DNA of 64,000 nucleotides from Methylacidimicrobium sp. B4 (GTDB taxonomy: Bacteria > Verrucomicrobiota > Verrucomicrobiia > Methylacidiphilales > Methylacidiphilaceae). The notes beneath the pieces are model-generated. The model did no database searches, was not told where the DNA came from, and saw only the letters and a program-made list of their open reading frames with translations. The position numbers were made by a program, and so were the translations under genes. How positions within the stretch are numbered: the stretch's first letter is position 1; each line of letters opens with the position of its first letter. Positions 683 through 10,974 of this stretch are shown one piece after another. The stretch is taken from positions 1,178,001-1,242,000 of the forward strand of contig NZ_CP066203.1 of the NCBI RefSeq assembly GCF_017310545.1, written 5' to 3'.

Positions 683-1266
683 TGGGCGTGATCGTTCTCC
701 ACCGACGATGCTCGCTTGAGGGAAAGAAGATAGGCGACGAGCGCCCTCGCCTCTGGCCTGGGTATGACTTGAAATCCATGCGGCGGTGCATCGCGGCCCG
801 AAAGGGGCAAGGCATCGGGCAGTGGCGTCCCGAGCAGCGGGACGCGCGCGTACAGGTACCGGTAGGACGGCATCAGCGAGCCCGGAAAGATTGTTCGTGG
901 ATCATAGAGTAAACGGTAATACCAACGGGCGTCGGTGCGACGCTCTCCCACGTTGGCGAGGTCGGGCCCCAGGCGGAGCACGCCTAGCGGCACGATATGC
1001 TCCTCCCGATACTCGGACGGCGTCGTCCGGTGCGTGCCCCAGCCCCGGGCGATATCCGACCCGAGGTTCGCTGGGCGAACGACCTGCGTGTGGCAGGAAG
1101 CACAGCCGTTGGCCGCATAGATTTCGCCGCCGATGGCCGCTCGCCCGAAGGGCGCTCCGCCGGGTCCGGCCGGCCCGAGCTTCGTCAGGGGCATCCAGAC
1201 GAGAAGAACCCATCCCGCTCCGGTCGCCAGCAGGATCCCGAGGAGCAGACGTTTCGGTTCGGTCAC
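679..1266 (-). CDS. CcoO-like monoheme cytochrome c
   Basis: A 195-residue membrane-anchored cytochrome c resembling cbb3 oxidase subunit II. It has an N-terminal helix, heme motif CASCH (residues 55-59) followed by TQVVRP as in CcoO, a GPDLANVG segment, and a Met ligand in LMPSY near residue 132. The GTG start at 1266 is chosen because it overlaps the TGA of the preceding gene and has AAGGAG about ten bases upstream; the longer frame to 1353 would overlap the neighbour heavily. Genetic coupling to a degenerate subunit I makes a normal oxygen-reducing cbb3 enzyme unlikely. Confidence 0.85.
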   Translation of the reverse strand: MTEPKRLLLGILLATGAGWVLLVWMPLTKLGPAGPGGAPFGRAAIGGEIYAANGCASCHTQVVRPANLGSDIARGWGTHRTTPSEYREEHIVPLGVLRLGPDLANVGERRTDARWYYRLLYDPRTIFPGSLMPSYRYLYARVPLLGTPLPDALPLSGRDAPPHGFQVIPRPEARALVAYLLSLKRASSVENDHAQ

Positions 1267-2720
1267 GGCGTCCGCGCTCCTTCCATCGCTACACCCGGCA
1301 GCGCTGCCTTCTCTCCCTCGCGTCGATTCGACCCGCTTTCCACGAGGAGCCAAAGAAGATGGAGCCCGAAGACCGCGTGAGCCGCCAACAGGGCCGTCGC
1401 CGGGCCAGCCGCGCTACGCAGGAAAGGGAGAAGCGAAAGGATCACCTCATGGATCGGAACCTCGGCATTATCGAGCGCAACCCCTTGGAAAAGCCCACCG
1501 ATGGCGAGCAGGCCGGTCAGGAAGCTGATTCCATAGCTGCTGAGCAGGAAGTGCGCCTTCGCCAATCCCACGGATGGCCAGGAACGGCCGAGCACTCGCG
1601 GCAAGATGGTGTAGAGCAGAGCAAAGAAGGTCATGCCCAAAAAGCCGTACAGGAAGAGCGTCAACTGCGCTTCTTCCAGGACGGTGTAGTGCACGTAGCG
1701 GCTCCATGCCGGCAGGGCCAGCACCGCACCGAGCCCGGCGGCCACCAGGAAGGCGCCCATGCCGAATCGCAGGAAATGCCAGCCGGCATCCCACTGCTTC
1801 CCTTCCACCGGCGCTCTGCGAGCCGCCTCCCAAAATCCCAATCCGATCGCCACCGCCGCCACCCAGAGCAGGAAGCGGGAGGAGACGCCCGACGAAACCA
1901 TCCAGAGGGGGAAGGGTCCGCCCACCAGATGGGCCATTCCGGCAAGATTCGCAAAGAGCACCCAAGCCCAGAAAGCCCGGCGGCCCAGCCCTCCGAAGGC
2001 CGCCGGTCGGCCGAGCAAGCTGGGAAGGAGGAGGAGCACGGTCCCGAGAGCGAACGCCCCCAACCCTGCATAGAGGAGGCCGTCATTGAACCACCATTCG
2101 AGCGATCCAATGGCCACCCCGCGCACCGCCGGATCGTGCAACCAGAGTGCCGCCGCTCCTCCACCCCACGGAATCCAGACAAGTCCCAGAAGCAGGAATC
2201 GCGATGCGAGCGAACCCTCCTCCCACCGGCGCACCAGGAGGGCGACGAGCCACCCCGCGGAAAGGAGATAGGCCATCCCGAGCGAAGGCAGGGAGAATGT
2301 CGGCAATCCAAGCCAGGAGAGAGAACGACTTTCCCCGGCCAACACTCCGGTGATCCCGCTCCACAATCCCAAATTCCAGAGGAAGGACGAGGCGAGAAAC
2401 CAGCGTCCGCCGGGAAGAGAAAGCCTCCCTCCCTTCGTAACGGCCCAAAGAACCGCACAGAGCCCCATGGGGATGCCGAATCCGTAGACGAAGCTCAGGA
2501 AAGCCGCCGGGCTGATCCGTCCGAAGGTGAGCCAACCCCAGGTGCCCAAAAATCGGGGATCGACGAGCTTGAGGCTGCCGAGCAGCGCCAGAATGCTCGC
2601 TACCCAGAGCCAGACGGCCGCCGGGGCAACCAGCCCAAGGACGGGGACGCGCAAGGGCGATCCCTCGTCCCCGGTTCCAGCCCTTACCGGCATCTCCTCG
2701 GATTCAGAAGCTTCTGCCAT
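1263..2720 (-). CDS. CcoN-like heme-copper oxidase subunit I homologue lacking most metal ligands
   Basis: A polytopic membrane protein of 485 residues that can be matched by eye along its length to cbb3 subunit I (CcoN). Shared landmarks are TFGR near residue 66, EWWF near 208, HYT near 344 and a late HF...FQG block. The positions that hold the heme and CuB histidines in CcoN carry Ala (about 73), Asp (213), Ala (263), Gln (352) and Thr (354); only His264 remains. It is therefore predicted not to reduce oxygen and may be structural. The ATG at 2720 is preceded by GGAGG at good spacing. The gene lies between a small membrane protein and a CcoO-like cytochrome. Confidence 0.8.
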   Translation of the reverse strand: MAEASESEEMPVRAGTGDEGSPLRVPVLGLVAPAAVWLWVASILALLGSLKLVDPRFLGTWGWLTFGRISPAAFLSFVYGFGIPMGLCAVLWAVTKGGRLSLPGGRWFLASSFLWNLGLWSGITGVLAGESRSLSWLGLPTFSLPSLGMAYLLSAGWLVALLVRRWEEGSLASRFLLLGLVWIPWGGGAAALWLHDPAVRGVAIGSLEWWFNDGLLYAGLGAFALGTVLLLLPSLLGRPAAFGGLGRRAFWAWVLFANLAGMAHLVGGPFPLWMVSSGVSSRFLLWVAAVAIGLGFWEAARRAPVEGKQWDAGWHFLRFGMGAFLVAAGLGAVLALPAWSRYVHYTVLEEAQLTLFLYGFLGMTFFALLYTILPRVLGRSWPSVGLAKAHFLLSSYGISFLTGLLAIGGLFQGVALDNAEVPIHEVILSLLPFLRSAAGPATALLAAHAVFGLHLLWLLVESGSNRREGEKAALPGVAMEGARTP

Positions 2721-2739: not shown

Positions 2740-3150
2740 TCAGGGTTTTGGAGCGGAAGAAGGCGGTTGTCGCAAGAGAGCACCGGGGAGAAGCACCTTC
2801 GACGGGCCGACTTCCTTACTCTTCAGCCGCTCTTCTTCCAACTCCATCGCCCGCTCGATGGGCAGGGCAACAACCCCTTTGCCCCGATCGATCCACTGGT
2901 ATCGGCCCAGCATTTCCCGATCGGCCTTGCGCAAGGCTTCGAGCCGACTGACCCGCTCGGCCAACTCCTGCTTCGCGTCCCTTTCCTCCGCCTGCGTCAA
3001 GCTCCGGGTGACCAGAAAGACGCCTACAGTCGGCCACACGAGCAGAAACACCCCCCACCAGTACGCCATCATGCCCGGAGATCGCTTCCCGCTAGAAGGC
3101 TTGCGAACGGCTTTCGCTTCCCCTCTGCTGCCATCGTCCTCGTTCGGCAT
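2740..3150 (-). CDS. small single-helix membrane protein of the ACIII operon
   Basis: A 136-residue protein with one membrane helix (about residues 27-48), then a charged helical segment and a motif reading YQWIDRGKGVVALPIERAME. Similar W-D-K/R-x-K-G-V-x-x-P-I-x-x-A-M segments occur in small proteins next to cytochrome oxidase and ACIII genes, which suggests an assembly or accessory role (inference). An ideal AGGAGG lies six bases before the ATG. It starts 12 bases after actF. No enzymatic motif is visible. Confidence 0.7.
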   Translation of the reverse strand: MPNEDDGSRGEAKAVRKPSSGKRSPGMMAYWWGVFLLVWPTVGVFLVTRSLTQAEERDAKQELAERVSRLEALRKADREMLGRYQWIDRGKGVVALPIERAMELEEERLKSKEVGPSKVLLPGALLRQPPSSAPKP

Positions 3151-3162
3151 GCGGGTCCTCCT

Positions 3163-4371
3163 CTAGCTGACGACCTCCAGCGACTCGCGCAGGCGGGGGT
3201 CGTGCTTGGGATAGAGCTCGCAGGAAACGAGCCGCCGCAAGAATGCGCCCGTCATGAGGCACGCCATTCCCACCCAGACAACGACCTCGAGCACCCCGAT
3301 CGCTACCCCTTTTTCGAAGACCCCAGGAAGGATGAGCCAATAGAGCTCGCCCGCCTGCATCAGAAGCACCCACGATGCGGCCAGTGCGAGCATTTTCGGG
3401 TTGCGCTTGGTCGCCTGCGAGAGAAGCAGGAGAAAGGGCACGAAGAATCGGCCGAGCACCAGGCCGATCGCAAACCAGTTCCAGCTTCCCCGGTTGCGCT
3501 GGATGAAGAAATAGGTCTCCTCGGGGATATTGGCATACCAGATCAACATATATTGGCTGAAGGCGAAATAGCCCCAAAGGGCGGTGAAGGCAAAGAGCAG
3601 CTTGCCCAGGAGGTGGAGATGTTCTTCGGTCATCTGCGGCAGGTGGCCCTTTCCCCGCAGCCAAAGAAGGATCAGAGTCCACAGAGCCAGGCTCCCACCG
3701 GCCGCTCCCACGAAGACAAAACCTCCCCAGAGGGTCGAGCCCCAGCGGAAGTCGAGCCCCATCAGCCAGTCGATCGCCGCAAAGGTCATGCAGGCGCCAT
3801 AGACGACGAGAAGGCCGTAGGAGAGCTTCTGCATGCGCACCGTGTGCCATGGATCGCCGTCGCCATCCTGGCTGCGGGAGCCGTTCCAGAGAAAGCGAGC
3901 GACAACGATCCAAAAGGTGAAGAACAATACCGCCCGGATTGTGAAAAACGGCAGGTTGAGGTAGGCCGACTTCGCTTGCAGCGCCCGGTCGTGAGCGAGG
4001 GCGGGACTCGTCCACTCGTAGAGATAATGGCCCCAAAAGGCGTCCCAGAGGATCGGCAGAAAGAGCAACGCGACCCACGGGAAGAGGCTCGCGACGTTTT
4101 CCACCTGCCGGCGTAGGAGGGCTCCCCATCCCGCATTGGTCACGTAGTGGAGCAGCACCCAGAAGAGCGCTCCGGCACAGAGGCTGAAAAAGAAAAAGAA
4201 GGAAAAGAGCCAGCCATGGAAAAATTCCTTCGGGTGCCACCAGGCTCCGGCGAATGAGGCCGTCAGGAGCAGAGCGCCCGCGCGTTGGAGTCGCCCGCCG
4301 AGCGCCTGGATTTGCGCCGCCGGAAGAGGAACGGAGGGGCGAAGCTCGGGAGCAGATTCAGTGTGACCCAT
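3163..4371 (-). CDS. actF: alternative complex III subunit ActF
   Basis: A polytopic integral membrane protein of 402 residues, about ten helices, resembling ActF of alternative complex III, the quinol:electron-acceptor oxidoreductase that replaces bc1. Landmarks include an FHGWLFSF segment, WGHYLYEW, FAAIDWLMGLD, the FAFSQYMLIWYANIPEE block and a late PFLLLLSQATKRNP. ActF resembles the quinol-binding ActC/NrfD fold but carries no cofactor. The ATG at 4371 follows the actE stop by two bases; the frame stays open upstream, but that part is antisense-like sequence inside actE. Confidence 0.92.
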   Translation of the reverse strand: MGHTESAPELRPSVPLPAAQIQALGGRLQRAGALLLTASFAGAWWHPKEFFHGWLFSFFFFFSLCAGALFWVLLHYVTNAGWGALLRRQVENVASLFPWVALLFLPILWDAFWGHYLYEWTSPALAHDRALQAKSAYLNLPFFTIRAVLFFTFWIVVARFLWNGSRSQDGDGDPWHTVRMQKLSYGLLVVYGACMTFAAIDWLMGLDFRWGSTLWGGFVFVGAAGGSLALWTLILLWLRGKGHLPQMTEEHLHLLGKLLFAFTALWGYFAFSQYMLIWYANIPEETYFFIQRNRGSWNWFAIGLVLGRFFVPFLLLLSQATKRNPKMLALAASWVLLMQAGELYWLILPGVFEKGVAIGVLEVVVWVGMACLMTGAFLRRLVSCELYPKHDPRLRESLEVVS

Positions 4372-4373
4372 CG

Positions 4374-4985
4374 CTATTTCCCCTCCAGCTCCGGCCGCTC
4401 CGCAATCGGGACGTCCGCAAGCGTCGCATTTTGACTGAGCTGCAAGGCCCGGATGTAGGCGACGACGGTCCAGCGCTCTTCCACGCTCAGGTTGGCTCCG
4501 TATCCCAGCATCAGCCCCTGTCCGTGGGTGATGACGTAGAAGATCTGACCGTCCGGCATCTGCCGGGTGTGATCCGAATGGTAGTTGGGCACTCCGACAA
4601 GGCCGTACTGGGTCGCAATGCCGTTTCCCGATCCCGCCGCTCCGTGACAGGCGCTGCAAAAGATTTCAAACCGTTCCTTCCCCTTCTTGAGCGTTTCGGC
4701 GGTCACGGAAATAGGGATCCCATCCCCCCAGTAATCTCCGATCATCCCGGTGTTCAGGTAGGGCTGATCGACCGGATCGCTCGTCGGAACCGTCCCCGTT
4801 ACGGGGTAGCGGCTTGCCCGGCGATCGGGAAAGAAGAGGCTGGGAGCCTGCTCCTTCACTTTGGCCTGTCGCACCATGTCGGGAAAAATTTCGATGGGGT
4901 TGCGCGTCGTCTTGGTACCGCGGAATCCCGTGACGCTGACCACCGCAAACACAAGGCAGGCGAGGAACAAGAGGAAGGTACGCAT
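4374..4985 (-). CDS. actE: alternative complex III monoheme cytochrome c ActE
   Basis: An exported cytochrome c of 203 residues. It has a hydrophobic signal or anchor at residues 3-20, one heme motif CSACH (110-114) and a distal Met probably in QGLMLGYG. It should accept electrons from ActA/ActB and pass them to the terminal oxidase or a soluble carrier. The start at 4985 gives a clean signal sequence and sits 13 bases after the actCD stop; a start at 5111 would add a charged, non-signal-like extension. It is followed two bases later by actF. Confidence 0.92.
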   Translation of the reverse strand: MRTFLLFLACLVFAVVSVTGFRGTKTTRNPIEIFPDMVRQAKVKEQAPSLFFPDRRASRYPVTGTVPTSDPVDQPYLNTGMIGDYWGDGIPISVTAETLKKGKERFEIFCSACHGAAGSGNGIATQYGLVGVPNYHSDHTRQMPDGQIFYVITHGQGLMLGYGANLSVEERWTVVAYIRALQLSQNATLADVPIAERPELEGK

Positions 4986-4998
4986 GTTTCCGGGCAGC

Positions 4999-7014
4999 CT
5001 ATCGAGGAATATAGGTGAGTCGTCTCCCTCCCAAACGTTCCAGGAATTCCCGGCTTTCGGCCGGCGAGAACGCGGGATCCCTCGCTTCGATGACGAGGAA
5101 GAATCCGTCATCGGTCGCTCGTCGAGAAAGCTCCCCCCAATTCCAGACCGGATGGTGAGGTCGCGGAAGCCGCGAGAGAAGGACGACGGCCAGAAAGCCG
5201 CTGAATGCGGCGAAAAGAATGGTCAGCTCGAGCAAAACGGGGACGAAAGCGGGGAGGCTGAAGTAGGGCTTGCCTTGGACGACGGTCGCGTAGAAAAGGC
5301 CCTGCAGTTGACCGGTCGTCAAGCTTCGAAGCAATTCGGGGCGCGGGACTGAGGTGGCCGTCACCATGGCAATCCCAATGAGGAGGCCCAGCAAACCTCC
5401 CATCAACACGAAAAAGGAGACACGGGATTTGGGAAGGCGCATCGCCTGCTCCATGCCATGAATGGGATGGGGCGCATAGGCATCCCACCAGACGTATCCT
5501 TTCTTTCGGGTCTCCTCGCTCGCCCTTCGCAGATCCTCTTCCGAGGAAAATTCCGCTCCCAATCCGTAGATCTCCCGGCTCGGCAGCAAGGGTTCCGGCT
5601 CATCGAACGGGGCTTCCGGCTCCCGCGGCCGACGCGGCTTCGCCAGCAGGGTCTTGATCTCCGCGATGGAGATCGCGGGCAAGACGCGCAGAAAGAGCAG
5701 GAAGAGGAAAAAGAAGAGGCCAACGCTGCCGAAGAAGAGCCCCCAATCGACCCAGGTCGGGAGATAGTGGCGCCAAGAGGAAGGCAGAAAATCCCGCTCG
5801 AGGCTGACCACAATGATCGAATAGCGCTCGAACCACATGCCGACGTTGATGAGCACCGATGCCGTCCAGAGGATCCACGGATGGATTCGAGGGAGCCGGA
5901 ACCAGAAGATCTGAGGTAGGAGGACGTTGAATCCGAACATGAAGAAGTAGGTCGCGCAGTCGGGGCCCGTGATCCGATTCCAGAACGTGTATCGTTCGTA
6001 GGGATTGGCTCCGTACCAGGCCATGAAGAGCTCGATCAGATAGGAGTAGCCAACCAGCGATCCCGTCGCCAAGAGCACCTTCGCCATATTGTCCAGGTGC
6101 TTCTCCGTAATCATGTCCTTGAGGCGAGGATAGGCGGCGCGCAGCGGAACCATGAGCGTGACGATCATCGCGAACCCGCTGAAGATGGCTCCCGTAATGA
6201 AATCGGGTGGGAAGATGGTCGTATGCCATCCCGGCAGCACGGTCGTCGCGAAGTCGGTGGAGACCACCGAGGCGACCGAAATCACAAGGACGCTCACCAC
6301 GCCCGCGATGCAGAGGTATCCCGCCTCGTAGTGACGCCACGCCCGAAGCGAACCCGTCCATCCCCAGCAGAGCACGTGGTAGAGGCGTTTCTTCCACAGC
6401 TTGGTCGCCCGGTCCCGAAGGGAGGCGATATCGGGAAGCAGGCCGAAATACCAGAACAGGCAAGAGACAGTGAAATAGGTTCCCACGGCAAACTCGTCCC
6501 AGAGGAGAGGAGCGCGGAAGTTCTGCCAGACCGCGTACGATTCCGGGACCGGCACCATGTACCAGAACATCCATTGTCGCCCGATGTGGAAGAGGGGGAA
6601 GACCGCCGCGCAGAGGACGGCGAAGATCGTCATGGCCTCGGCGGCCCGATTCACCGAGTTCCGCCACCGTTGGCGCGTGAAGAGCAAGATCGCCGAGATC
6701 AAGGTGCCGGCATGCCCGATCTCGATCCAGAAGACGAAGTTGAGAATGGCCACACCCCAAAAGACCGGGCTCTGCAGCCCCCAGACACCCAAGCCCGTGC
6801 TGATGAAATAGACGACGACCAGCGGCACCGCTCCCGCCAAGACTCCGAAAGCCACTACGGCAAGCCACCACCAGAGGGGAGCCGGCTTTTCCACCACGGA
6901 GCAGACCGCGTCGTTTACCCAAGAAGCTTCCCTCTCGTTCAAGACGAGCGCCGGGCGCGCCAGAAGCTCCCGACCGCTTTCCGCTCTATCGACCGCGTTC
7001 TCCACCCTCGGCAT
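4999..7014 (-). CDS. actC: alternative complex III ActC-ActD fusion protein
   Basis: One 671-residue frame encodes two subunits that are separate in most described complexes. Residues about 1-470 are an NrfD/PsrC-family quinol-oxidising membrane subunit (ActC), including EIGHAGTLISAILL and the PFERY-like NPYERYTFWNR region. The C-terminal ~180 residues are ActD (DUF3341), recognisable by the GYVWWDAYAPHPIHGME block, two helices and a C-terminal DGFFLVIEA segment. No stop or frameshift separates them. The ATG at 7014 has GGAAGGA six bases upstream, better spaced than the ATG at 7020. It is followed by actE. Confidence 0.9.
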   Translation of the reverse strand: MPRVENAVDRAESGRELLARPALVLNEREASWVNDAVCSVVEKPAPLWWWLAVVAFGVLAGAVPLVVVYFISTGLGVWGLQSPVFWGVAILNFVFWIEIGHAGTLISAILLFTRQRWRNSVNRAAEAMTIFAVLCAAVFPLFHIGRQWMFWYMVPVPESYAVWQNFRAPLLWDEFAVGTYFTVSCLFWYFGLLPDIASLRDRATKLWKKRLYHVLCWGWTGSLRAWRHYEAGYLCIAGVVSVLVISVASVVSTDFATTVLPGWHTTIFPPDFITGAIFSGFAMIVTLMVPLRAAYPRLKDMITEKHLDNMAKVLLATGSLVGYSYLIELFMAWYGANPYERYTFWNRITGPDCATYFFMFGFNVLLPQIFWFRLPRIHPWILWTASVLINVGMWFERYSIIVVSLERDFLPSSWRHYLPTWVDWGLFFGSVGLFFFLFLLFLRVLPAISIAEIKTLLAKPRRPREPEAPFDEPEPLLPSREIYGLGAEFSSEEDLRRASEETRKKGYVWWDAYAPHPIHGMEQAMRLPKSRVSFFVLMGGLLGLLIGIAMVTATSVPRPELLRSLTTGQLQGLFYATVVQGKPYFSLPAFVPVLLELTILFAAFSGFLAVVLLSRLPRPHHPVWNWGELSRRATDDGFFLVIEARDPAFSPAESREFLERLGGRRLTYIPR

Positions 7015-7040
7015 CTTCATTCCTTCCCTTAGTGCTCTGC

Positions 7041-10000
7041 TCAGCCCGCACGACGGCTCGTATCCCCGATCGGTCCTTCCGGCTCTCGCGCGCTTGGGCG
7101 GTCCTCCCCTGCCCCGAGATCGGGATTCGGATTGCGGACCCGCGCCAGATAAGAAACGCGCGGGCGCACGTTGAGAAATTCCAATACCCGATAAGCTCGA
7201 GAGTCCGCCTTCCAGCGAGAAACTTGGCTTTCCGGATCCGCCAGATCTCCGAAGACGATCGCTCCGGCGGGACAGGCCTCTTGGCAAGCCGTCCGCACGC
7301 TATCCCGAGGAATGGGTTGCGGCACGCCGTCGCGGGCCCGGACAAGAGTAGCAATCTTGGCTTCCTCGACCCGTTGGACGCAAAAGGTGCACTTTTCCAT
7401 CACTCCCCGCATCCGGACAGTCACGTTGGGATTGCGCTGCATCTGGATGGTCAGGGGGCTTCCCAGGGCGCCGAACGGGCCCAGGTAGAGATTTCCCACC
7501 GACCATGGACCGATCTTTTTCGTCTTCAGGACGTCGCGCTTGTTGAAATCGAAGAAATTGAAGCGACGCACCTTGTAAGGGCAATTCGCCGCGCAGGCCC
7601 GCGTGCCGATGCACCGATTGTACGCCATCACGTTGAGCCCCTCCTCGCTGTGTACGGTCGCATTCACGGGGCAGACCGCTTCGCAGGGAGCGTTCTCGCA
7701 CTGTTGGCAGAGCATCGGCTCGGGCATCGTGCGCAGATCGGCCTCGGTGCCCAGAAAATACCGGTCGATACGGATCCACTGCATGATCCGGCCACGGATC
7801 ACCTGCCCCTTGCCCACGATCGGCACATTGTTCTCACTCTGGCAGGCGATGACGCAGGCATTGCATCCCACGCAGCTCCCCAGGTCGATCACCATTCCCC
7901 ACTGGTAAGCGCCCTTGCTTACCCCTTCGGTATACGCGGGCCCGGGCTGCTTGGCGCCGTAAGGGTTGGGATAGATCGAAACCTCCGGGACCGATCGTGC
8001 CTCCCCATCCTCTCGCTTGGCGAAATCGGGTACCGCACGATACTCGGCCAGGCTTCCCTCCCGCACCAAGCCCCGATTGCCGGGATCCCCGTGGATCTGC
8101 GACTGTGCGATGGGGTAGCTCCTCCCGGACCGAATCGCCGAAACCCCCGAGGCGTAGCGCAAGGTCTCCCGAGACCGGAGCAAGTAGGCATTGAACCCAT
8201 GGCCTTGCGCCACTCTCCCGCCGAAGGAGCGTCCGTATCCGAGAGCGAGCGAAAGAGCGTTCTCGGCATGCCCCGGAACGACGAGTGCTGCGGCTTCCAG
8301 TCGGCGGCCGCCGCTTTCCAGCAGCAGCAGCTCCGCCTGCCGGGAATCTCCGCCGCTGGAGGAGAGCCCCAGCTTGCGAGCCGTTTGCGGGCCCAGGAGG
8401 ACCGCATTGTCCCAAGTGAGCTTCGTAATGAAATCCGGTAGCTCCTGCAGCCAGCCGTTGTTAGCCTGGCGCCCGTCGCCGATTTTCGTGCAGGGATAGA
8501 AGGAAAGCTCGAGCCCGTGCGCTGCCGGCCTTCGAGCCAGATCCTTCGCAACTACGGGCTCTGCCTGATCCCAGCGCGGCTCGGGAGAGAGCGGACTGGG
8601 GGCACTTCCCGGCCAGAATCCGTCGTGGAGGCACCGCCGCCATGCTTCCGTTCGATCCTTTTCCTCGACGCGGCAGAGCCGCACGAAGCTCTCCTGCACC
8701 CTTCTCGCCGCGATGGGCAAGGGCAGGAGGGGAGGCCCTCCGGCAAGGGGAGGCTGCGAAAGCTGCATCGGGTTCGCTTCTTCCGGCACCGCCAAGGCGT
8801 CTGTCTCTCCGCACAAGGCGGCCAGAACCTCAATCTCTGAGAGGGCGCCGAAAAGAGGCAGGATCATGGGCTGCGCGCTCAGGTAGGTCCCATCGGGCCC
8901 GAAGGCATCTCCCCAGCTCTCCAGATAATGAGCCATGGGAGCATGCCAGTGGCTTGCCTGCGCGGTCTCGTCCGCTAAAAGTCCGAGATGGATGACCTGC
9001 GGCACGCTCCGCTGCAGCCGCAGCCAGTCGAGATCCACCGGCGCCGTATAGGCCGGATTGGCTCCGAGAATCAGAAGGGCACGGACATCTTCCTTCCGGA
9101 TCTGCTCCGCAAGCGACTCGAGCGACTCTGCCTCGTCCTCCAAGGCCGGAATCAGATCGAGAGCCGAGCGCTTTTCGAACGCCAGGTTCATCGTCAAGGC
9201 CAGCAGGGCCGCAGGCGCGGGAAAGTCCCGACCCATGACGATGAGAGGACGCTTGGCTCGGAAGAGATCCTGGGCGACGGCCTTCGCCCACTTCCGCACC
9301 GGCTCCCCCCAATCCTCCGCCACCACCCGGCCGAAGGGGTCGAGCTGCGCGAGCCCGGCAGCCGCGAGCTCGCGCGCCACCAAGGCGAGAAAGGCCGCCT
9401 GATCTCCCGCCCGCAAAGCGAGCCGGTGATCGGCGATCGCGCCCGTGGAAGTCAGCCGCTCTTCGACCGCGTAAATCCGGCTCATCCCATCCCCTGGATT
9501 CAGCAGCCTGCGGCGCGCGGCAATCCCGCGCACGGCCCACGGCCCTTCCTGGTCCCCCGAAGCAAAGTCGCAGCCGATGGAAAGAATGACGTCGGCTTCC
9601 GCCCAACGCGGAAGAAGCGTCAACCGTTCCCCAAAGAGCTGCCGGGTCGCGGCAAAGCGGTCCCTATTCCCCAGCGGACTGTAGGTGCAGAGAATCGCTT
9701 CCGGATAGCGCTTCCGGAACTCCTCCCGGAGGCCGGCGAGGGTGGGAGAGACAGTCGGCTCGACGACGACCGCAAGCCCCGCCCCCTTGGTTTCTCGCCA
9801 GGAGCCGATCGACTTGCCCAGGAGCTCGACAAACCGCTGGCGCGTCGCAGGGTAGCCATTCTCCAGGAAGCCCACCGCCCGATCTGGATCGTAAAGATCG
9901 AGGATGGAAGCTTGAAGCTGAGGGGTGAGCCCCGCATCGGAAATAATCCGGTTCGCTTCCAGGTGCGTCGGCCGACCCTCATAGGTCGTCACGAAGAGTG

Positions 10001-10295
10001 AGACCCCACCGTAGACCGCGGGGGCTGTGGTCGCATAGAGGAGCGGTTTTCCTGGAACCACCCACTCGGGACTCGCCGTGTACGGGACCAGATGACCTTC
10101 CGGACGTCGGCAGCTCGCCAAGCCGATCCCTCCGAGGGCGAATGAAGCCCCCATGACGCGCAGGAAGCTCCGGCGGCTGATCGACTCCCAGGCAAAATCG
10201 CGGGACGGCTCAGCAGCCTCCAAGGAGGATGCCGCCTCTCCGGAAGAAAAGGCATCGCTCCCCGCAGTCCTTGGCCTCGTCTTCTTGGGTTCCAT
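7041..10295 (-). CDS. actB: alternative complex III Fe-S/molybdopterin-like subunit ActB
   Basis: A 1084-residue periplasmic subunit with a twin-arginine signal (SRRSFLRVMGAS, about residues 40-51). The large N-terminal part is of the molybdopterin-oxidoreductase fold, known in ActB not to bind the cofactor. The C-terminal part is a ferredoxin-like domain with four cysteine clusters: CVGCNACVIAC, CQQCENAPCEAVCP, CIGTRACAANCP and CTFC...ACQEACP. These clusters should carry electrons from quinol to the cytochromes. The ATG at 10295 has GGAGGGG eight bases upstream; an in-frame TTG at 10319 is less likely. It lies directly after actA. Confidence 0.94.
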   Translation of the reverse strand: MEPKKTRPRTAGSDAFSSGEAASSLEAAEPSRDFAWESISRRSFLRVMGASFALGGIGLASCRRPEGHLVPYTASPEWVVPGKPLLYATTAPAVYGGVSLFVTTYEGRPTHLEANRIISDAGLTPQLQASILDLYDPDRAVGFLENGYPATRQRFVELLGKSIGSWRETKGAGLAVVVEPTVSPTLAGLREEFRKRYPEAILCTYSPLGNRDRFAATRQLFGERLTLLPRWAEADVILSIGCDFASGDQEGPWAVRGIAARRRLLNPGDGMSRIYAVEERLTSTGAIADHRLALRAGDQAAFLALVARELAAAGLAQLDPFGRVVAEDWGEPVRKWAKAVAQDLFRAKRPLIVMGRDFPAPAALLALTMNLAFEKRSALDLIPALEDEAESLESLAEQIRKEDVRALLILGANPAYTAPVDLDWLRLQRSVPQVIHLGLLADETAQASHWHAPMAHYLESWGDAFGPDGTYLSAQPMILPLFGALSEIEVLAALCGETDALAVPEEANPMQLSQPPLAGGPPLLPLPIAARRVQESFVRLCRVEEKDRTEAWRRCLHDGFWPGSAPSPLSPEPRWDQAEPVVAKDLARRPAAHGLELSFYPCTKIGDGRQANNGWLQELPDFITKLTWDNAVLLGPQTARKLGLSSSGGDSRQAELLLLESGGRRLEAAALVVPGHAENALSLALGYGRSFGGRVAQGHGFNAYLLRSRETLRYASGVSAIRSGRSYPIAQSQIHGDPGNRGLVREGSLAEYRAVPDFAKREDGEARSVPEVSIYPNPYGAKQPGPAYTEGVSKGAYQWGMVIDLGSCVGCNACVIACQSENNVPIVGKGQVIRGRIMQWIRIDRYFLGTEADLRTMPEPMLCQQCENAPCEAVCPVNATVHSEEGLNVMAYNRCIGTRACAANCPYKVRRFNFFDFNKRDVLKTKKIGPWSVGNLYLGPFGALGSPLTIQMQRNPNVTVRMRGVMEKCTFCVQRVEEAKIATLVRARDGVPQPIPRDSVRTACQEACPAGAIVFGDLADPESQVSRWKADSRAYRVLEFLNVRPRVSYLARVRNPNPDLGAGEDRPSAREPEGPIGDTSRRAG

Positions 10296-10320
10296 CAACT
10301 CATCCCCTCCTTCGCGCAAC

Positions 10321-10974
10321 CTACCGGTGACAGGCAGAGCAGTTGTCGGAGGGCTGAATTTTCTCCTGCTCGACCAGATGCTTGCCCATCTCGACCTGCG
10401 ATTGCCCGCTCGGGAGCTGCCATCCTAGATCAAAAACCTTCTCCTGCGGCCGGACGAAATACTCCGGATTCCGATGACAATCCAAGCACCAGCTCATGCT
10501 CAGGGGGGTCTTGTGATAAATGGTCTTCATCTGGTTCACCTCCCCATGGCAGCTGAAGCAGCTCACCCCCCGGTTCACGTGGGCGGAGTGGTCGAAGTAG
10601 ACGTAATCCGGCAATTGATAGACCCGAGTCCATCGCACCGGCTCTCCACTCTCCCAGCTCTCGCGCAATGCGGCCAGCTTCGGGCTGTCGGCTTTGACCA
10701 TCCGGTGGCAGGACATGCAGGTTTGGGTCGTCGGCACGTTGGAAAATCCGCTCTTCTCCACGAAGCTATGGCAGAAGCGGCAGTCGAGCCCAAGGCCCGT
10801 TACATGCAGGGAATGATCGAAGGGAATCGGCTGCTTGGGCATGTAGCCGACTCGCGTGTATTTCGGCGTGAAGTAGTAGGCGATCCCAGCGACCGTCAGG
10901 GCGGCGATGATGAGAATTCCAACTACGATCTTCCGGGGAAGCTCATTGGCCGCTTTCCCGAAAAGATTCGCCAT
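10321..10974 (-). CDS. actA: alternative complex III pentaheme cytochrome c ActA
   Basis: A 217-residue cytochrome with one N-terminal membrane helix (about residues 14-33) and five heme motifs: CRFCH, CMSCH, CFSCH, CLDCH and CSACH, the last at the C-terminus. Spacing and order fit ActA. It begins the operon actA-actB-actCD-actE-actF. The 180 bases upstream should hold the operon promoter, but no convincing -35/-10 pair was seen. No strong ribosome site precedes the ATG. Confidence 0.93.
   Translation of the reverse strand: MANLFGKAANELPRKIVVGILIIAALTVAGIAYYFTPKYTRVGYMPKQPIPFDHSLHVTGLGLDCRFCHSFVEKSGFSNVPTTQTCMSCHRMVKADSPKLAALRESWESGEPVRWTRVYQLPDYVYFDHSAHVNRGVSCFSCHGEVNQMKTIYHKTPLSMSWCLDCHRNPEYFVRPQEKVFDLGWQLPSGQSQVEMGKHLVEQEKIQPSDNCSACHR

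Follow-up and report, generated by a model that had tools for sequence, protein, structure and literature searches.

The window, the whole 64,000-nucleotide stretch of Methylacidimicrobium sp. B4 DNA analysed here, encodes a homologue of CcoN, the catalytic subunit of C-family (cbb3-type) cytochrome c oxidase, that lacks five of the six metal-ligand histidines of that subunit as well as its catalytic tyrosine. We propose, with a probability of roughly 0.6, that this former oxidase core now acts as a metal-free scaffold for a pair of c-type haems, which would form a wire from alternative complex III (ACIII) to another oxidase.

A CcoN homologue encoded beside ACIII

The gene occupies positions 1263–2720 and is read on the minus strand from an ATG at 2720 to a stop codon whose last base is 1263, giving 485 amino acids. 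It belongs to a run of genes, all on the minus strand, ordered actA-B-CD-E-F-p136-ccoN-ccoO-ccoP, in which an ordered ACIII cluster (actA, B, C, D, E, F) is recognized from Pfam matches and from orthologous clusters. The ACIII genes are actA (10321–10974), for a multihaem cytochrome c subunit (Cytochrome_C7, 1.6e-13); actB (7041–10319), for an iron–sulfur/molybdopterin-like subunit (Fer4 families and orthologues); a fused actC-actD frame (4999–7287) for membrane subunits, with a C-terminal ActD match at 2e-48 and an NrfD-like part assigned by homology; actE (4374–5111), for a monohaem cytochrome c subunit (Cytochrome_CBB3, 1.9e-12); and actF (3163–4659, start uncertain), for a membrane subunit that is identified by position and by homology to other clusters and that has no Pfam match in the profile search.

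Two membrane-anchored monohaem cytochromes c are encoded downstream of the CcoN homologue. The CcoO-like protein (679–1293; FixO/CcoO 1.1e-19, NCBIfam 2.4e-21) carries a CASCH haem motif and an MPSY sequence that holds the likely axial methionine; its start is uncertain, as the open frame extends to 1353, into the end of ccoN. The CcoP-like protein (23–682; Cytochrom_C 3.9e-12, ccoP 1.9e-7) has one haem motif, CAACH, instead of the two haems of canonical CcoP. Past the start of the window follow ctaD, ctaE, ctaF, a 188-amino-acid frame and coxB of an A-type (aa3) oxidase. A small single-TM protein of 136 amino acids (p136, 2740–3150), encoded between actF and ccoN, could be a further subunit of ACIII or of the oxidase; it is found at the same place in many relatives, with or without the CcoN metal ligands, and is kept in G008, a genome of the host's family in which ccoN is absent.

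The 485-residue protein is homologous to CcoN along its whole length, as had originally been predicted. In the profile search Pfam COX1 (PF00115) spans residues 32–421 (1.1e-15), and the TIGR00780 ccoN model matches at 2.4e-6 with 26.7 bits, which is below its curated cut-off of 583 bits; a relative with all ligands scores 235 bits against the same model. Solved CcoN chains (6xkw_n, 8smr_E and 9g6b_A) were aligned by phmmer, every single match being weak. An AlphaFold2 model (pLDDT 86.1, pTM 0.89) has as its top structural match the cbb3 CcoN chain 8smr_E, with Z of 47.8 and an rmsd of 2.2 Å over 443 aligned residues. Chains of cbb3 CcoN take the first five places among the structural matches (Z 46–48, about 440 residues, rmsd 2.2–2.7 Å), followed by cNOR at Z 41–43 and other oxidases at 36 or below, and this match of the predicted model identifies the CcoN fold of membrane helices. 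An identity as the cNOR subunit NorB was rejected on the absence of the HHYFWIG motif and the NorB ligand set. The locus is like CcoNOP of the C family in its CcoN fold, its CcoO-like and CcoP-like neighbours and its N-O-P order, but differs from it in having no metal ligands, no catalytic tyrosine, a CcoP-like protein with one haem rather than two and a TIGR00780 score of 27 bits against 583.

At the six ligand positions the protein reads Ala73 (minus-strand codon 2502–2504), Asp213 (2082–2084), Ala263 (1932–1934), His264 (1929–1931), Gln352 (1665–1667) and Thr354 (1659–1661), His264 alone being kept, and the cross-linking, catalytic tyrosine of TM7 is replaced by Ala257 (1950–1952). No gaps occur around the ligand motifs, where GRISPA73 is aligned with GRxRPLH, EWWFND213 with QWWYGH, AGMA263-H264 with AGPHH and AQ352LT354 with GHVH. 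This assignment is a sequence alignment backed by the fold match rather than a residue-by-residue superposition, and it agrees with the coordinates and all six residue letters named in the original prediction. A relative from the same genus (83% identity) has identical ligand-site letters (ADAHQT) and the neighbouring genus has SESHFV, so chance is not a sensible explanation of the ligand loss.

CcoN needs all six histidines to bind haem b, haem b3 and CuB. With five ligands and the tyrosine gone and no substitute ligand set seen, the protein very likely, judged from its residues, carries none of these three cofactors and cannot reduce oxygen. The original description of a non-catalytic subunit is supported.

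Intact, half-decayed and metal-free relatives

Among 388 Verrucomicrobiota genomes searched, relatives were found in 108, with all strong matches within the same class. Eighty-four distinct relatives, all from the class Verrucomicrobiae, have the ACIII–ccoNOP arrangement, and wherever the flank suffices the neighbours are the same: act genes upstream, and ccoO and ccoP downstream. The company of CcoO-like and CcoP-like cytochromes, named in the original prediction, holds across this set, as does the position beside ACIII. All six histidines and the tyrosine are present in 28 of the 84 (intact members); the other 56 retain three histidines or fewer, and none has the tyrosine (lost members). Replacement letters vary widely between lineages of lost members and form no common set, and one clade carries a fixed QQRHQQ. 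The same substitutions, for which a check in other Verrucomicrobiota had been suggested, are accordingly not general: 28 of 84 members are intact, and the lost ones show many letter sets that arose repeatedly. Position 264 is H, K or R in 42 of the 56 lost members, and what is conserved there may be a basic residue. The retention of His264 is thus correct, and its reading as a relic ligand does not necessarily follow.

A scan of named genomes added 80 loci with the same arrangement. Most are intact, including those of Coraliomargarita, Cerasicoccus, Geminisphaera colitermitum TAV2 and strain IMCC26134. Records titled Akkermansia muciniphila (L181, L202 and L221) also hold intact loci, 57–62% identical to an Opitutales-type query, and their titles may be wrong. 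Three named loci are half-decayed, reading HHARHH with Ser and HHRHHH with Gln in Opitutaceae and YHRHHH with Thr in Opitutales; all three have an altered CuB site and tyrosine and keep most haem ligands. These copies (L213:4647-6131, L217:6537-8012 and L227:4823-6214) are possible evolutionary intermediates. Together, the intact, half-decayed and metal-free versions form a natural series in which the roles of a haem–copper core beyond catalysis could be studied, and the series also bears on how electrons pass between respiratory complexes without a soluble cytochrome c.

The intact relatives are probably working oxidases, to judge from the six histidines and tyrosine in 28 of 28 and from two genomes that are 98–99% complete, G001 (1.7 Mb) and G146 (1.3 Mb), which have no PF00115 protein other than the intact copy and in which CydA of cytochrome bd was not found. 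In every searched genome that has a lost copy, one or more further PF00115 genes are present. The ACIII-linked C-type oxidase of Opitutaceae and relatives, which represents the intact branch, shares the locus and neighbours of the gene studied here at about 30% identity, but keeps the six histidines and tyrosine and is probably an oxygen reductase.

The reported cbb3 oxidase of verrucomicrobial methanotrophs

The host genome, a single 2.37-Mb contig (GC content of the window, 62%), carries two pmoA genes; other members of its family have pmoA too, and these genes mark the host as a methanotrophic member of the Methylacidiphilaceae. Published accounts, in the passages that treat these oxidases, credit verrucomicrobial methanotrophs except PQ17 with cbb3, aa3 and ba3 oxidases, the cbb3 genes adjoining ACIII (Schmitz 2021, PMC8498564), and state, citing Refojo 2010, that a C-type oxidase with ACIII occurs only in these methanotrophs and Opitutaceae. 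A genome paper ties the ACIII-linked cbb3 to high oxygen affinity (Kruse 2019, PMC6688271), and the cbb3 assignment is repeated in PMC11102522 and PMC10205796. The corresponding passages of these four papers make no mention of missing ligands, and a search of the open-access literature for ligand-less CcoN or haem–copper pseudoenzymes returned nothing relevant.

The listing of cbb3 beside ACIII in those passages of the Kruse and Schmitz papers would fit a still working cbb3-type oxidase, perhaps with alternative ligands. Such an enzyme is extremely improbable, as the protein lacks the two ligands of the low-spin haem, that of b3, two of the three for CuB and the tyrosine, lost members share no replacement set, and intact relatives keep all seven residues.

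No ligand-bearing, canonical CcoN was found in seven Methylacidiphilaceae methanotroph genomes, the best match reaching about 34 bits against the ccoN cut-off of 583. The other PF00115 proteins examined in the family are A-type, B-type or cNOR. PF00115 proteins of 465–534 amino acids from methanotrophs were considered as CcoN and rejected, since they contain HHYFWIG and are cNOR NorB, and a weak fifth PF00115 match in the host genome (C1:813270) is a membrane protein without haem–copper motifs. The published methanotroph 'cbb3' is most likely the metal-free CcoN homologue, given its position beside ACIII, the lack of another CcoN and the report of PQ17 as having no cbb3, as in G008. The metal-free protein contradicts these published assignments. 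With no ligand-bearing CcoN in the seven genomes, the high oxygen affinity must stem from a different enzyme (aa3, ba3 or bd), and these three types would carry out oxygen reduction in the host. Homology-based annotation will miscall the wider family, in which about two thirds of the sampled Verrucomicrobiae members cannot be high-affinity oxidases.

A full-length CydA, subunit I of cytochrome bd (481 bits), is encoded in the host genome outside the window (G000:C1:633680-634966), whereas reviews name just aa3, ba3 and cbb3 for verrucomicrobial methanotrophs; G008 has no CydA.

Selection and the history of ligand loss

The metal-free ccoN homologue is maintained by selection rather than decaying. 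Between two species of the genus (83% identity), dN/dS by the Nei–Gojobori method, for this one species pair, is 0.153 for the ccoN homologue, 0.152 for ActF, 0.129 for CcoO, 0.182 for CcoP and 0.062 for CtaD. Pseudogene status was rejected, the frame being open and the ratio of 0.153 showing no relaxed selection. A relic on its way to being lost could point to G008, where the whole module has gone outright. This is nonetheless a very unlikely description of the gene, considering that its dN/dS is 0.15, that the 56 lost members, which come from many families, have open frames, that a full fold is predicted for this protein and that the gene has persisted for long.

The ancestor was most likely intact, since all outgroups have six histidines and the tyrosine. 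On a tree of ACIII (ActB, ActC and ActF), parsimony requires at least 12 changes between intact and lost states and a single lost clade is rejected (p-AU 8e-90), which indicates that loss recurred; well-supported branches of this tree hold nine independent intact/lost pairs. A CcoN tree built without the ligand columns takes 3 to 5 changes. Many of its lost sequences are long-branched, and 49 lost members form one clade with 98% SH-aLRT. That clade is the evidence for a single ancient loss after which the metal-free ccoN spread among lineages by transfer, a matter of history only that is compatible with a scaffold function. We consider this course improbable in view of the ACIII tree. The CcoN data, too, are compatible with a group that unites family f5, intact and lost alike (p-AU 0.36), and the tree program flagged long-branch joins in them. 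Several losses are nested within intact groups in both trees (L213/L217; L040/L179/L196; L227; L126/L130), and intermediates altered at the CuB site exist. The simplest account is that ligands were lost repeatedly and that long-branch attraction affects the CcoN tree.

A putative electron bridge from ACIII

The partner cytochromes keep their haem motifs regardless of the state of CcoN: C..CH is present in 84 of 84 CcoO and 82 of 82 CcoP proteins. Among the loci examined, CcoO or CcoP was never found beside ACIII without CcoN. In G008 (L235, G008:C1:229000-248500) the order is actABCDEF-p136-ctaE-ctaF-coxB, with ccoN, ccoO and ccoP jointly absent between p136 and ctaE and the sole ctaD-like gene elsewhere. 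This genome presents a natural deletion of ccoN-ccoO-ccoP (and ctaD) in which ACIII and the remaining aa3 genes are kept.

In the model that we favour, the ancestral protein would have been the CcoN of an ACIII-linked C-family oxygen reductase that later gave up its three metal cofactors (haem b, haem b3 and CuB) along with the catalytic tyrosine while retaining the fold and membrane seat for the CcoO-like and CcoP-like monohaem cytochromes. Menaquinol electrons would exit ACIII through ActA/ActE and pass through the CcoO and CcoP haems to reach the CuA centre of the aa3 oxidase encoded downstream, an enzyme with a subunit II that lacks its own cytochrome c domain. In ACIII–caa3 clusters elsewhere such a domain is fused to CoxB, and the module would take its place.

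The main support for this bridge comes from CoxB. Proteins encoded next to the module and aa3 have an intact CuA motif and no C..CH (0 of 24), whereas a fused C..CH is present in eight of nine CoxB proteins from ACIII–oxidase clusters without the module; these nine come from other classes or are second ACIII copies, and the contrast (Fisher 6e-7, relatedness ignored) is clade-structured. It also lends support to the putative attachment to ACIII and the electron-exit or docking use envisaged in the original prediction. The module, a neighbour of both in gene order, may assemble physically with ACIII and aa3. ACIII–aa3/caa3 superoperons and supercomplexes (Flavobacterium johnsoniae, Rhodothermus and Acidobacteria) likewise have ACIII genes followed by an A-type oxidase; here, by contrast, CoxB lacks the cytochrome c domain, and the genes between encode a metal-free CcoN and, as separate proteins, two c cytochromes.

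An aa3 oxidase is adjacent in 23 of 56 lost members versus 1 of 28 intact ones (Fisher 2e-4, raw). We rejected the idea that an aa3 in cis drives ligand loss, as the association vanishes in the nine independent pairs, none of which lies in the expected direction. The 33 of 56 lost members with no aa3 next door indicate that aa3 is not the cis partner everywhere; in those, electrons would go to an oxidase encoded elsewhere. Nor is the module indispensable for transfer from ACIII to aa3, since G008 keeps ACIII, ctaE, ctaF and coxB without it.

The metal-free CcoN might instead have a membrane function of its own, for instance in conducting protons or quinones or in the coupling of ACIII, with the cytochromes as passengers. 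The basic residue at position 264 and the fixed QQRHQQ set hint at a new polar site, and the fold and many membrane residues are conserved. We regard such a function as unlikely: replacement letters differ widely among lineages, and the constant partners are two cytochromes with intact haem motifs. The scaffold reading extends, at slightly less than even odds, to about ten independent conversions within one class of an oxidase catalytic subunit into a metal-free scaffold, its two-haem wire from ACIII to an oxidase replacing the cytochrome c fused to CoxB.

Two further features of the cytochromes were observed. The CcoO haem motif has the form C.YCH in 28 of 28 intact loci (for example, L125, L132 and L137) versus 3 of 56 lost loci, and it possibly co-evolves with the CcoN haem site; canonical CcoO has its tyrosine elsewhere in the motif, and the pattern is therefore not used as evidence. 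An extra CcoP-like monohaem cytochrome is encoded upstream of ccoN in the lost loci L055, L060-L063, L070, L080, L084, L087 and L090.
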